A stretch of 21,850 nucleotides of DNA, from IMG/VR virus record IMGVR_UViG_3300029813_000040, positions 1 through 21,850 of that record; one strand, given 5' to 3'. This document shows positions 4,905-10,674 of this stretch, piece after piece (position 1 is the first letter of the stretch; each line of letters opens with the position of its first letter). Both the position numbers and the translations under genes were made by a program. This DNA comes from a virus. The notes beneath the pieces are model-generated. The model saw only the letters and a program-made list of their open reading frames with translations, had not been told where the DNA came from and ran no database searches.

Positions 4905-4948
4905 TTACATTAAACCTATTATGTTAAATCTAATTATGCTGAACCTAA
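4905..4948. repeat. Three degenerate 14-15-base copies of a gene end
   Basis: The units TTATGCTGAACCTAA (4934-4948), TTATGTTAAATCTAA (4919-4933) and TTACATTAAACCTA (4905-4918) lie head to tail. On the coding strand each unit ends in TAA: the first encodes the actual C-terminus LGSA-stop of the tail tubular gene, the others read LDLT-stop and GLM-stop. They fill the whole gap before the fibre gene's ATG. Confidence 0.85.
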
Positions 4949-5560
4949 TTTAGAGTTGATTCTGCTATCGCCAAGACGGGCATCGTTCCAAGTGCCTAAA
5001 TCGCTTCTGCCAATAGTATTTGTCTCCTGCCTATCTAAAGTCCTAACAGCAGGCATTAGAAGTCTTAATTCTTTTATCAAATCTTCTTTTGCTTTCCTGT
5101 CTTGAGCAAGCGGCATAACCAACTTAATGGCAAGATTCAAAACCAGAACTTCAACAAATAACGGGTCGAACTCCGTAACATCAGTAACTTTTTTGATATA
5201 GCGAATACTGGCTGTAGAGTCATTTGTCAGGAGAAGCGAACCTTCTAATGCAAAGGAATTAAGCGTGTTTTTCCTTGTGGTATTATTATCATCATAAACT
5301 GATTTCAATCGTAAAAAGTCATCGGGAAGGACAAATTGATTATCCCACTCAAAAGTAGGGTCATCGGCATCCGCCACCAATTCAGCCCTCGCAGAAGCAA
5401 ATCGCCACCAGTGAGAACGCAGCAAGGCATCCCTTGTTTGGTCGTAATGTAACTGGCATTGAATTGCTTGCACGGAAGTATCTGTATCTAAATCAGTTAG
5501 GCGAAGAGCCCCTATTTTGGCAAGAGCAAGATTACAAATTGCAGTTTCAGTAAGAGCCAT
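4934..5560 (-). CDS. Tail tubular protein A (T7 gp11-like)
   Basis: A 208-aa protein beginning MALTETAICNLALAKIGALR, followed by DTSVQAIQCQLHYDQTRDAL and LRSHWWRFASARAEL. This order (NxALxxIG, then a helix with C and YxxxRDxLLxxHxWxFA) is the hallmark of T7 gp11-type tail tubular proteins, which form the ring that joins the portal to the tail nozzle. VLPDDFLRLKSVYDD at about residues 77-91 is the conserved PxDxLRxxxV strand. The length matches the family (about 190-220 aa). It lies downstream of capsid genes and ahead of the fibre gene, as expected. ATG 5560 has a weak A-rich site (GAAAAG). Together with the connector-type portal this supports a podovirus morphology. Confidence 0.9.
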   Translation of the reverse strand: MALTETAICNLALAKIGALRLTDLDTDTSVQAIQCQLHYDQTRDALLRSHWWRFASARAELVADADDPTFEWDNQFVLPDDFLRLKSVYDDNNTTRKNTLNSFALEGSLLLTNDSTASIRYIKKVTDVTEFDPLFVEVLVLNLAIKLVMPLAQDRKAKEDLIKELRLLMPAVRTLDRQETNTIGRSDLGTWNDARLGDSRINSKLGSA

Positions 5561-5802: not shown

Positions 5803-5832
5803 CTTATCCTAAAGACTTGTCTTATCCTAAAG
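5803..5832. repeat. 12-base direct repeat CTTATCCTAAAG at a gene junction
   Basis: Perfect copies lie at 5803-5814 and 5821-5832, separated by six bases. On the coding strand the upstream copy carries the C-terminus and stop of the 142-aa gene (codons for Leu-Gly then TAA) and the second copy repeats it (Ser-Leu-Gly-stop) just before the next ATG, giving that gene its AAGGA site. Confidence 0.85.
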
Positions 5833-6250
5833 GTTTATCTCCCGTGAATCCTTCTACATAGACGAAGCACGCAGTGTTATAACCACCTCCGGCATAAACT
5901 CCTACACAATTCAATGCCTTGTTGTCTGTTATTTTTAAGGGCGGGTCAAAATCCTTTTGAAATAAACCACTTTGGACTTGCAATCCTATTGGGCCAAAGG
6001 CAGTAGTGCCTATCCCATCCACTAATGATATTTTATTATCTATCAAATAACCGTGGTCTGCACTATCCACCAGACCCATTGTTACGTGAGTTAGATACAA
6101 TGCACTGCCGGCACGAGTTGGGGCCGCTTTTAATTCCTCGTCTAACCCACCTGCCGCAAAGTCGGCAGAATGAAAATTAACCGCCCAGGGAGCATTGACC
6201 TCGATTGGATGTGTCCCATCGCCCACTAATATTGGTGTTACTATCGCCAT
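5822..6250 (-). CDS. Putative virion (decoration-like) protein, paralogue A
   Basis: A 142-aa protein starting MAIVTPILVGDGTHPIEVNA. I chose the second ATG (6250) because AGGAG lies five bases before it, against two for the ATG at 6253, and because the paralogue at 6867-7256 starts in the same way. Both share the order LTHVTMG/LTHITIS, FGPI, FQKDFDPPLKITDNKAL/FTKDWKHPLKVGDNKAL and a C-terminal Gly-Asp/Lys-Lys-Pro end. The pattern is beta-rich without Cys clusters or catalytic residues. The stop of the glycosyltransferase gene overlaps its ATG (TGATG), so they are translationally coupled. Position after the capsid genes suggests a capsid decoration or head-surface role; this is inference. Confidence 0.72.
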   Translation of the reverse strand: MAIVTPILVGDGTHPIEVNAPWAVNFHSADFAAGGLDEELKAAPTRAGSALYLTHVTMGLVDSADHGYLIDNKISLVDGIGTTAFGPIGLQVQSGLFQKDFDPPLKITDNKALNCVGVYAGGGYNTACFVYVEGFTGDKPLG

Positions 6251-6858
6251 CATAGCTCCTTATAATTATAATGTTTGCAGATTATTGTCGGGTCAACTAT
6301 TAACTTGTATCCGGCCTTCCGTACAATTCTGCTGAAATACTCATCCTCTCCGTAATCATAGCATCTGCCTTCTTCATCTATGGGTTTATACACTATCAGA
6401 AACCACGGCCGTTCAAGCTTTTCAAAGACCTCTCTTTTTACAAGAAGCACCGAACCGCCTACCGCCGTAGCATCCATCAAACCGTCCGACAATGGCGAGC
6501 TTTGTTGCCGCCAGCCACCGTATGTCTTACCGCCAGCTTTACTATCCGTCTTAAATGACCACGCCATTTCTCCGTTTACGTTCATCGGGTAAATACCAGC
6601 CACGATAGGCAAGTTGTGGTCAAGTAACTTCTGTAACGTATTCTCCGGTGGTACAACGTCAGAATCTATAAAATATAAATGGGTAACGGCAGGGTCTTTA
6701 AGTGCGTAATACGCAAACGTGCTCCTGCCCACACCAGCTTCCCTCGAAGCGACATAGCCCCACTTGACGCTGGGACGCATCGCTTCCGCAGAACAATATG
6801 CAGCGGTGCGCACATCTATCCCGTAATCCTTATCTACCGGTACGCCTATAACTATCAT
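6250..6858 (-). CDS. GT-A fold glycosyltransferase (family 2-like)
   Basis: A 202-aa protein. It has an N-terminal Rossmann-like strand (MIVIGVPVDKDYGIDV), the metal-binding DxD in YFIDSDVVPP (Asp65-Ser-Asp67), a following helix and strand PIVAGIYPM, then a GGSVLLVKREVFEKL segment, GEDEYF (Glu171-Asp172, likely the catalytic region), and a final His in CKHYNY (His196). These are the elements of compact GT-A enzymes that transfer sugar from a nucleotide-sugar to an acceptor. The enzyme is near minimal length for this fold. It lies between two paralogous putative virion genes and overlaps the start of the second. The acceptor is not shown; a virion protein or a host surface polymer are both possible. 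ATG 6858 follows AGGA at seven bases. Confidence 0.85.
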   Translation of the reverse strand: MIVIGVPVDKDYGIDVRTAAYCSAEAMRPSVKWGYVASREAGVGRSTFAYYALKDPAVTHLYFIDSDVVPPENTLQKLLDHNLPIVAGIYPMNVNGEMAWSFKTDSKAGGKTYGGWRQQSSPLSDGLMDATAVGGSVLLVKREVFEKLERPWFLIVYKPIDEEGRCYDYGEDEYFSRIVRKAGYKLIVDPTIICKHYNYKEL

Positions 6859-6866
6859 CTAAATTC

Positions 6867-7256
6867 CTAAGCTATGGGTTTCTTCCCGATGAAGTATTCG
6901 CCATAAATAGTAAATGCCGAAGCGGCGGAGGCCTCTACGAACAACGCTTTGTTATCACCTACTTTCAATGGATGCTTCCAGTCCTTTGTGAATGGACTAC
7001 CTCCATCCTGCATCTGGATTGGGCCAAACAGAACCGTACCAGTTACAGCGTCCTGAAGCGTAATTGCAATATCAGCCGCACGACCACTTATAGTAATATG
7101 CGTCAGGTATATTGATTTACTTGCACCTGGTGTACCTACGCATTGTTCGGCAGTACTGGCATTATCCTCATCGTTATTGAACGCCAGTGGCCCAGACCTT
7201 TCTATCGGATAAGCGCCTGGCCCTATTAAAGTTGGTGTAGTAATTGCACCTGCCAT
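6867..7256 (-). CDS. Putative virion (decoration-like) protein, paralogue B
   Basis: A 129-aa protein starting MAGAITTPTLIGPGAYPIER, with SKSIYLTHITISGRAADIAI, FGPIQMQDG and DWKHPLKVGDNKALFVEASA. It aligns over its full length with the 142-aa protein beyond the glycosyltransferase (same order of motifs), so the pair arose by duplication. No catalytic residue or signal peptide is seen. ATG 7256 follows TAGGAG, and this site lies in a duplicated gene-end segment. The glycosyltransferase starts nine bases after its stop and takes its ribosome-binding site from that end (TAGGAA). A head decoration or spike role is the most likely reading, without direct proof. Confidence 0.74.
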   Translation of the reverse strand: MAGAITTPTLIGPGAYPIERSGPLAFNNDEDNASTAEQCVGTPGASKSIYLTHITISGRAADIAITLQDAVTGTVLFGPIQMQDGGSPFTKDWKHPLKVGDNKALFVEASAASAFTIYGEYFIGKKPIA

Positions 7257-8718: not shown

Positions 8719-9636
8719 TTAAACAGTATCGAGAGCTATCTCAACAACTGCGGGGCCTTCAACACGGGTGGCGCCAATAGACATCTCAACATAAACTTGA
8801 GTTGAGTAGTTCTTGTCGTCTCGTTCCGTAATACGAACCGTAGGTTCCTCAGCGACGGCGAGGACAATCGCATCCTGAGCGAAGGCATAGCTATCAGTGG
8901 CATCAAGATTGACCGAAGCATTAAGCCTTGTGGACATAAGGAACTTAAAGCCAAGATATGTGTCAATCTGACCCTGTGCTAAAGCCTTGACAGTATTATA
9001 ATCGGAACTTTTAACCTCTGTAGTATTAAGTAACTGATTGATGTTGTACGGATTTGTTAAAAAGTATCTTTGACGGTCTTTATCAATATTCGCATCATCC
9101 ATCAGTTGCTTACAGGTAAGCAATTTGGGAATAGTCAAACCTGTCTCTGCACCGGAGTCGGTATTAGGAGAGCCAGCAGCAATAATTGTGCCGTTATCCC
9201 TGATAAGCCGACATTCGTTGACGTCGTAGTTGTTAATTGCTACACCTGCGTGTCCACCATAAGAAAGTCCGCCTAATGCCGAGATAATCGTATCGTCAAT
9301 AGTGCGGTTGAACGCCATTACAGCGTTCTGGGCATAAGTTGATTGAGGGTCGATGAGCAGTTTTAGCTTATCTTTATTATCAATCAAGTCAGCCCAGTTG
9401 TAATCAGCCATCGTCAACCTTCGTCTGGAGTGCGGGGTGGAGATAAGCGGCGTATCACCGTGTCGAGCACCTATAAGTTGTGCTGTAGTAGCACCAACCC
9501 GCTCGACAAACATAGTGTCGCCAGTTATATCTTCCATCCTGCAACACTGACGCAGCAAAGTCTCTTTTTGCTGACTTAACAGCAAAATATTAGCCTTAAA
9601 CTGGTCAACGAAGGCAACAGGAATCTGTACGCTCAT
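8719..9636 (-). CDS. Major capsid protein (BPP-1 type)
   Basis: A 305-aa protein starting MSVQIPVAFVDQFKANILLL. I chose ATG 9636 since AAAGG lies eight bases upstream; a TTG five codons earlier overlaps that site. Conserved features are the Gln-rich first helix (QQKETLLRQC), TGDTMFVERVGATTAQ, the segment DTPLISTPHSRRRLTMADYN and WADLIDNKDKLKLLIDP, the E-loop and spine-type region, and a C-terminal VEISIGATRVEGPAVVEIAL-like end (here VEMSIGATRVEGPAVVEIAL). This is the capsid type I know from Bordetella phage BPP-1 and relatives, an HK97-fold shell protein. No N-terminal delta domain is visible, consistent with a separate scaffold gene just upstream. A 159-base leader with a hairpin precedes it. 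Confidence 0.92.
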   Translation of the reverse strand: MSVQIPVAFVDQFKANILLLSQQKETLLRQCCRMEDITGDTMFVERVGATTAQLIGARHGDTPLISTPHSRRRLTMADYNWADLIDNKDKLKLLIDPQSTYAQNAVMAFNRTIDDTIISALGGLSYGGHAGVAINNYDVNECRLIRDNGTIIAAGSPNTDSGAETGLTIPKLLTCKQLMDDANIDKDRQRYFLTNPYNINQLLNTTEVKSSDYNTVKALAQGQIDTYLGFKFLMSTRLNASVNLDATDSYAFAQDAIVLAVAEEPTVRITERDDKNYSTQVYVEMSIGATRVEGPAVVEIALDTV

Positions 9637-9795
9637 TAGATAACCTTTCAATAGGAATAGAAATTTCCCGTTAATCGGAAAGGTTATCCTTGTGGGTCTC
9701 CCCTGCGTGCGTCGCTCACGGACAGTTTACTGTCTTCTTTTGGGTCTCTTGCGAGGTTGTCCGATATAATACTTTAACTGGTTCTCAAAGAGAGG
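9637..9795 (-). other. Capsid leader region with a hairpin and repeated gene-end motifs
   Basis: This non-coding stretch between scaffold and capsid genes contains AGGTTATCC at 9681-9689 and 9793-9801, a related GAGGTTGTCC at 9753-9762, and GGGTCTC at 9694-9700 and 9742-9748. GACAGTTTACTGTC at 9721-9734 is a perfect 5-bp hairpin with a TTTA loop. The 9793 copy holds the stop of the scaffold gene (GGATAACC on the coding strand). The repeats suggest a duplicated gene end. The length would allow a capsid promoter or mRNA-stabilising leader, but I see no convincing promoter. Confidence 0.55.
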
Positions 9796-10674
9796 TTATC
9801 CAGTCTTTGTATGACTTACTTTTTCTTGAAATAGTTTTGATACTTTAGCAACAGTTGCTTTGTGCTGTTGTTTTGTAAAGCCATGCTTAGCATAATCAAC
9901 ACCATAAGCAGGTTTTGCTATTTCATCATCTATTTGAGCTTGTATATCACTTGGTGTCGGAATGAGTTTAGTTACATCAACAGCCTTGCCTTCGGCAAAT
10001 TTATTGCCAATATCAGCGGCAAATCGGATAAAGTCAGGGTCATTGCCAAACTTCTGGGTAAGGCGTTCCTTAAATTCATCATCGCCACTCGTCCCTTGCT
10101 CCACCGCTACATTGCCTAAATGCTTCTTCTGCTCAAAGGCATTGCCCCAATCGGCATACAAACTATCTTTAAGCATTGTTGCCACCAACTCTGCATCCTG
10201 CTTATTCTTCGCAAGTTGTGCTATTACATTGTTATTATTAAATGCAAACAATGCGTCAGCTTGCTTTTGGCTTAAGCCAATCTTGTGGAACAATTCTTGC
10301 GCAGTAGTTGCTAACTCTTGGTTGTAAAACTCTTCCGGCAATTCTTCTGGCCGTGCAAGGTTGTAATCGCCTGCTGTTTCCGGCCTGCCACCAGCGACAT
10401 AATAGGCATCCCATTCGACATCGCTTGATGCCTCATTAGGAATAGCAACCTTGTTTCTGCCAACCATCTTCTCGGCACTTGCCAAACTCTTCATCACACC
10501 TTCAAAATTGTTTACTCTATCAAAAACTTTTTCGTTCCGAATATCCTCCGGTAACGAATCTCTCCAACCATCCCTGAGTTCACCTTCTGCATTGACAAGC
10601 GGAGGGGTTGGTTGTCCTGTTGGCTCTGGGGCTATCGGCTCTGCGGCCACAAGGTCAGTTGTCCCTTCTGTCAT
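9796..10674 (-). CDS. Scaffolding / capsid assembly protein
   Basis: A 292-aa acidic protein starting MTEGTTDLVAAEPIAPEPTG. The N-terminal 40 residues are Pro/Ala/Glu-rich and disordered-looking. RDGWRDSLPEDIRNEKVFDR resembles the common scaffold segment in which the domain starts. Around residues 98-145 come GDYNLARPEELPEEFYNQEL and FHKIGLSQKQADALFAFNNN, the pattern (LPEEF, then HxxGLSQxQA) of podovirus scaffolding proteins. The C-terminus is basic and helical (KQQHKATVAKVSKLFQEK), as for capsid-binding ends. It lies directly upstream of the major capsid gene. No protease motif is seen. ATG 10674 follows AAAGGA at seven bases. Confidence 0.88.
   Translation of the reverse strand: MTEGTTDLVAAEPIAPEPTGQPTPPLVNAEGELRDGWRDSLPEDIRNEKVFDRVNNFEGVMKSLASAEKMVGRNKVAIPNEASSDVEWDAYYVAGGRPETAGDYNLARPEELPEEFYNQELATTAQELFHKIGLSQKQADALFAFNNNNVIAQLAKNKQDAELVATMLKDSLYADWGNAFEQKKHLGNVAVEQGTSGDDEFKERLTQKFGNDPDFIRFAADIGNKFAEGKAVDVTKLIPTPSDIQAQIDDEIAKPAYGVDYAKHGFTKQQHKATVAKVSKLFQEKVSHTKTG

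Follow-up and report, generated by a model that had tools for sequence, protein, structure and literature searches.

The gene for a minimal glycosyltransferase of predicted GT-A fold (GT) and the gene that directly follows it, which encodes a decoration-like protein (DecB), are paired almost exclusively with each other in a group of uncultured, short-tailed phages, and this pairing is independent of the histories of both the upstream paralogue of DecB (DecA) and the major capsid protein (MCP). We propose, with moderate confidence, that the two genes make up an exchangeable module, one encoding a decoration-like protein of the capsid and the other an enzyme that adds a sugar to it; that is, GT would glycosylate DecB. 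The enzyme is of an ordinary kind, and it is the gene pairing that is unusually clear.

The DNA analysed, to which we refer as the window, is a 21,850-base virus record from IMG/VR. The head operon on its minus strand begins with genes for the small and large terminase subunits, a head-tail adaptor/portal protein, a 292-aa protein that from its position is probably an assembly protein, and MCP. A gene for a 269-aa protein and two small genes come next, followed by DecA, GT and DecB, a 64-aa gene, the tail tubular A-like gene and a gene whose product is named fibre-like by position, so that the order DecA, GT, DecB is flanked by capsid and tail-tubular-A genes (Table 1). In the examined relative contigs as well, MCP and tail tubular A flank the slot for the Dec genes, and the gene for tail tubular protein A is likewise located 3' of MCP in Pelagibacter phage EXVC032P. 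Elsewhere in the window, an HNH endonuclease gene (1358-1897; phrog_20891, E 2.4e-29) that is likely to be a homing-type intruder resides amid the virion genes.

Table 1. Features of the GT locus and its borders in the window
Feature	Position	Strand	Basis
DecA, upstream paralogue; beta-sandwich, capsid-decoration-like; resident, replaceable slot gene	6867..7256	-	ORF, 129 aa
GT, minimal GT-A glycosyltransferase, phrog_1574 family	6250..6858	-	ORF, 202 aa
DecB, downstream, translationally coupled paralogue; proposed acceptor	5822..6253	-	ORF, 143 aa
Loop specific to DecB (ORF residues 120-126); contains invariant Tyr125, a candidate acceptor residue	5876..5896	-	model + alignment
GT/DecB junction: Shine-Dalgarno-like AAGGAG within last GT codons; GT stop overlaps DecB start	6248..6261	-	
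Major capsid protein (MCP), context	8719..9651	-	PF19821 E 1.8e-69, phrog_3437 E 2.7e-73
Tail tubular A-like tail protein; borders the slot on its downstream side (context)	4934..5560	-	phrog_394 tail protein E 4.6e-47

The three genes are located where the initial annotation of this DNA had placed them, and the outer two do encode paralogues, as it had recognized (DecA versus DecB: BLASTP E=2e-21, 38% across 141 columns). Its spacing of nine bases between the DecA stop and the GT start needs to be corrected to 8. The translational coupling that it had described for GT and DecB agrees with the overlap of the two reading frames and with the Shine-Dalgarno-like AAGGAG in the last codons of GT. 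DecB has two candidate ATG codons, of which the second, at 6250, is probably the true start because Met-Ala begins most family members at this place; a start there would leave a 1-nt overlap with the GT stop.

Structure prediction, which the initial annotation had proposed for the enzyme and both paralogues, yielded a GT-A fold for GT and a beta sandwich for DecB. The AlphaFold model of GT (pLDDT 90.1, pTM 0.88) agrees with the earlier description of a GT-A enzyme with a DxD motif, in that the domain covers residues 1-202, i.e., the entire protein, and the motifs are intact: DSD at residues 65-67, E171-D172 and H196. D65, D67 and D172 are conserved in 21/21 GT relatives, and H196 is kept in 20/20, one more GT ending at a contig edge. 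The modelled GT has the fold, and its sequence the DxD and the catalytic acidic residue, that are expected of such enzymes, and it is presumably a working transferase. The gene is under purifying selection, with a median dN/dS of 0.13 from the 7 of 120 pairs that were measurable. The nearest structure to the model is the STIV protein A197 (2c0n; Foldseek E 4.9e-10; Z 19.4, rmsd 2.2 over 164 residues), followed by entries for LH3 (Z up to 17.1, aligned via LH3 residues 297-521), yeast Mnn9, mimivirus R699 and COLGALT1; many GT-A enzymes match at Z 13-17. A197 is also the nearest PDB sequence to a profile of 19 GT relatives (E 2.5e-6), and its D151, counted along the profile alignment, aligns with the invariant D172 of GT. 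The window GT belongs to phrog_1574 (E 1.3e-15), a family annotated as of unknown function, which was matched by 19/19 scanned GTs (best E 3.1e-17). Against Pfam, the window GT scored below the curated cut-offs for Anp1 (16.4 versus 28.8 bits) and Glyco_tranf_2_3 (12.1 versus 27 bits); weak matches (E up to 0.01) to Glyco_tranf_2_3 and Anp1 were obtained for 7 and 3, respectively, of 19 family members. The GT tree has long branches and weak support.

The virus protein A197 is also a guide to what such an enzyme might do. It is essential, contains no domains beyond GT-A, and shows delayed replication as a D151E mutant. The coat protein of STIV, B345, is its possible target, although the review in question regards both the donor and the acceptor as undetermined (PMC10551542). 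Both A197 and GT thus consist of a single minimal GT-A domain, and the thought that a virus-encoded A197 acts on a coat protein (PMC10551542, excerpt) resembles our proposal for GT. The two systems differ in that STIV infects archaea and has a coat protein of the double-jelly-roll type, and in that GT is paired with DecB whereas the excerpt mentions no paired decoration paralogue for A197 (PMC10551542).

The search for close relatives of GT added 17 contigs to the window (18 in all), with at least 56% identity to the window GT among the relatives listed, except that one (L136) was admitted by its profile score. L136 came to light in a scan for DecB and had been missed by the scans for GT, which therefore overlook relatives. 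The gene after GT is readable in 17 loci, one contig (L012) stopping inside GT, and it is DecB in 16 of these; the exception is L101. The GT-DecB junctions range from -14 to +2 nt in 16/16 loci. The initial annotation had named a lack of co-occurrence of the three genes elsewhere as a refutation; the genes do recur in other phages. In a tree of 75 Dec rows, all 16 GT-linked DecB proteins fall into one clade (support 100/99), which was recovered in all of 200 bootstrap trees tested and holds none of the 42 Dec proteins from loci labelled GT-less, a label that includes L096, a contig ending within its Dec gene. The Dec trees left out 5 duplicate contigs and ORFs of <110 aa (except L003) or >240 aa; 5 very divergent Dec rows, dropped from the 75-row tree, lay outside the DecB clade in an earlier tree.

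The gene upstream of GT has a different history. With L101 set aside, 17 contigs can be compared: GT is preceded by a main-lineage DecA in 12, by a Dec protein of another lineage in 4 (L025, L062, L073 and L136, the last with an extra Dec-like ORF separating the upstream Dec from GT), and by no Dec protein in L022; DecA-type proteins occur in GT-less loci too. Tandem Dec genes are found without GT in L046, L076, L080, L089, L140, L141 and L142, and duplication is therefore possible without the enzyme. The initial annotation had pictured the enzyme as lying between a linked pair of duplicated acceptors. Much of that picture stands, i.e., the enzyme, the paralogues, their place in the head/tail operon and the recurrence, but only the downstream paralogue is tied to GT; we rejected the notion of two acceptors around the enzyme since the upstream paralogue is exchangeable.

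Two loci depart from the usual arrangement. The sole close GT without DecB (L101 7310-7951) lies one gene earlier and has the longest branch among the close GTs (0.84). In L026 (4920-6211), a tandem pair of divergent members of the GT family is encoded a short distance 3' of MCP and of a gene for a 146-aa protein, and no Dec gene was found with this pair. Both cases speak against a module of GT with DecB.

To view the pairing in a sample that was blind to GT and Dec, 80 contigs were gathered via MCP, of which 44 were kept after the removal of 31 with no readable tail tubular A and 5 near-duplicates judged from their layouts; L106 (GT and DecB) and L012 (GT) were among those removed. These 44 contigs comprise 9 with GT and DecB, 1 with GT alone, none with DecB alone and 34 with neither, a stronger association than expected at random (with DecB defined by its clade, Fisher p=1.4e-8). 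DecB had been labelled by gene position, and the label proved to correspond to one clade of the Dec tree, on which the zero therefore depends; when DecB was labelled by profile score only, the table became 9/1/2/32 (p=7e-7). The presence of GT, when mapped onto the MCP tree, is distributed as in shuffled data (9 changes versus a shuffled mean of 9.9), and among 7 independent pairs of contigs, DecB tracks GT in 6-7 and never goes the opposite way (p 0.016-0.031). The scatter together with the paired DecB indicates that the module is often gained or lost, and jointly. In L055, a 34-residue N-terminal remnant of GT (10038-10139; E 1e-8) is located 3' of a Dec gene and is followed by a stop, with the clade-type DecB absent alongside it; both GT and DecB are absent from L010. 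A 138-bp ORF in L042 is a less certain, merely possible further remnant: it matches the profile (29 bits) but is missed by tblastn at E 0.01.

Evolutionary distances were compared in the 13 loci that have MCP, DecA, GT and DecB. The distances of GT correlate with those of DecB (r 0.58, Mantel p 2e-4), but neither with those of DecA (r 0.21, p 0.16) nor with those of MCP (r -0.02, p 0.46); DecB and MCP are correlated at r 0.38 (p 0.004). For GT and DecB, r was 0.39 in all 16 loci (p 2e-4), 0.49 in 14 loci (p 4e-4), 0.63 in the 10 loci whose DecA is of the main lineage (p 4e-4) and 0.25 in 13 loci with a readable tail-tubular-A gene (p 0.08), and because of this variation between subsets the link is moderate and set-dependent. 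The corresponding values for GT and DecA were 0.31 (14 loci, p 0.06) and -0.29 (10 loci).

Modular exchange is usual among phages, and neighbouring genes that overlap can travel jointly without sharing a function. GT and DecB, whose ends abut or overlap, might accordingly recombine as one piece with no relation of enzyme to substrate, which we consider improbable. DecA and GT adjoin about as closely (junctions of -13 to +10 nt in 13/14 loci), and DecA has been swapped nonetheless; in addition, GT is under purifying selection and the DecB clade has a conserved loop of its own.

This loop joins the last two strands of the DecB model, an eight-stranded beta sandwich (pLDDT 85.6, pTM 0.80) whose closest structural counterparts are jelly rolls or sandwiches, both from viruses and from elsewhere. 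They include trimeric cement proteins from three phages, KHP30, KHP40 and Pam1, which match at Z 7.5-8.2 and without a sequence match (KHP30, 7dn2: TM 0.54/0.60; KHP40, 7dou: Z 8.2; Pam1, 7eel_H: TM 0.46/0.47). The likeness to a cement or decoration fold, at Z about 8, is suggestive and may reflect a common beta-sandwich arrangement alone. The cement proteins of KHP30/KHP40, Pam1 and GP4 are described as trimers of Ig-like fold, and the available excerpt mentions no linked GT (PMC9698820); they have no detectable sequence relation to DecB. A search with Dec sequences against PDB gave nothing credible, 63 Dec proteins yielded 1 match against phrogs (at 0.0096), and DecA had 2 weak matches in a phage collection. 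Fold and position, the DecB gene sitting in the head module near MCP, suggest that DecA and DecB are virion proteins, as the initial annotation took them to be, and that DecB would be located on the capsid.

The last-loop stretch comprises 16-18 residues in 15/15 DecB proteins, as compared to 12 in 44/48 other Dec proteins (maximum 15). Tyr125 is invariant in two 15-row alignments, which jointly cover 16/16 DecB, while its column in the other Dec proteins is a gap in 46/48 and Lys in 2/48, with Tyr in none. Other invariant residues of DecB (T55, T58, T109, T137, Y53 and N26) are possible alternative acceptors, but only Tyr125 lies in a feature missing from all 48 other Dec rows. Because it is invariant in DecB, within a DecB-only loop and without a Tyr counterpart in other Dec proteins, the Tyr125 loop is the best single candidate for an acceptor site, judging from the alignments; Tyr125 may instead have a structural role or be an inherited trait of the clade.

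The sugar might be destined for some other virion protein (MCP, DecA, the 269-aa product encoded after MCP, or tail parts), with DecB as a partner that, for example, binds or protects the glycan. We regard this as rather unlikely. L101 and L026 keep GT near other head genes without DecB, carbohydrate binding is known for several decoration proteins (PMC7602432, in part), and LamG lectin-like proteins occur in the same slot of four contigs (see below). The distances of GT are nevertheless unrelated to those of MCP and weakly related to those of DecA, which is of another lineage or missing in 5/17 GT loci. MCP as the target of GT was rejected as unproven, given the absence of correlation between their distances.

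Another role for GT would be to alter the host surface, by receptor masking or superinfection exclusion, with a merely positional link to DecB. Serotype-converting enzymes of the gtr type are membrane-linked glycosyltransferases that have a flippase gene as partner. In GT, the GT-A domain fills the 202 residues and therefore leaves no space for a membrane domain, and the next gene is DecB rather than one for a flippase in nearly every readable locus. Phage GTs that change the host serotype are on record (PMC12619734, in part), and in a slot as variable as this one, unrelated genes may co-reside. A role at the host surface is distinctly improbable, however, for a GT whose gene has MCP on one side and tail genes on the other and is coupled to that of DecB throughout the 16 loci, the more so as DecA is nearly as close to GT and is not co-inherited with it. 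A GT-alignment scan of genome contigs, reaching fairly close relatives, gave 70 pattern stretches and no relatives of GT; within that reach, the grouping of the enzyme with host surface-modifying enzymes, which the initial annotation had raised as a counter-indication, was not seen. In cyanophage ACG-2014f (L147 4851-8398), the surroundings of a GT relative include tail-collar genes, a nucleotide-sugar epimerase gene and another GT2.

The location of a phage GT gene within a structural module is, by comparison, what would be expected for virion glycosylation. Related kinds already on record are the virion glycosylation of mycobacteriophages and A197 of STIV. The mycobacteriophage case was reportedly described by Freeman et al. 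in 2023. The glycans reported there are on the subunits of the capsid and tail tube, at their C-termini (PMC12619734, in part). Our proposal shares with that system the glycosylation of phage virion proteins, but the target would be a separate decoration-like paralogue that is gained and lost with the enzyme. Among the matches listed from the open-access literature, none described a decoration protein that is glycosylated and has a GT linked to it.

The steps that we envisage for a module of GT and DecB are as follows. In an infected cell, the soluble, minimal GT-A enzyme would move a sugar from a host nucleotide-sugar to DecB, a decoration-type protein with a jelly-roll or Ig-like fold that would assemble onto the capsid. 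Virions would then display the glycan, which might mask the surface or alter its interactions, and the two genes would be exchanged together in the variable slot of the head operon. A more specific version, which we hold as doubtful, is a mobile self-glycosylating capsid module in which DecB, via its longer Tyr loop, is the dedicated substrate of a minimal GT located between duplicated decoration genes, perhaps by tyrosine O-glycosylation and perhaps in phages of Phycisphaerae (Planctomycetota). As to the hosts, two MAG contigs, one of Sedimentisphaerales and one designated Phycisphaerae by its title, both thus in the class Phycisphaerae, encode MCP with identities of 73% and 68%, respectively. 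These contigs may have been binned wrongly, and the two MAG genomes gave no match to the GT profile. We consider Phycisphaerae to be candidate hosts of this phage group.

Some relatives carry other genes in the slot or beyond its downstream border. A different kit of glycosylation type, with GT2-related ORFs measuring some 280 aa and 320-510 aa, directly follows tail tubular A in L043 (4033-6928), L046 (11457-14334), L050 (11452-14925) and L145 (10372-13249); PF00535 was confirmed for the ORFs in L046 and L145, a Methyltransf_24-type gene accompanies the kit in L043, L046 and L145, and none of the four contigs has the compact GT and DecB. Proteins of a LamG/concanavalin-like family are encoded in the same slot as the Dec genes in L040 (2925-3503), L047 (9680-10486; PF13385), L053 (9666-10385) and L101 (8588-9298), the first three of which are GT-less relatives. 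In this respect, the slot resembles a site that receives cassettes for surface proteins of the capsid.

For viral glycosyltransferases like A197, the question of the acceptor has here received one named candidate, DecB, from comparative genomics. DecA provides a natural negative control, and GT-less relatives are available for comparison, so that enzyme and substrate become directly testable as two proteins. If our proposal is true, phages would be able to swap a capsid glycan coat as one unit; if the more specific version holds as well, an A197-like enzyme would O-glycosylate a decoration protein of a phage, and related phages would gain or lose a capsid glycan in a single exchange.
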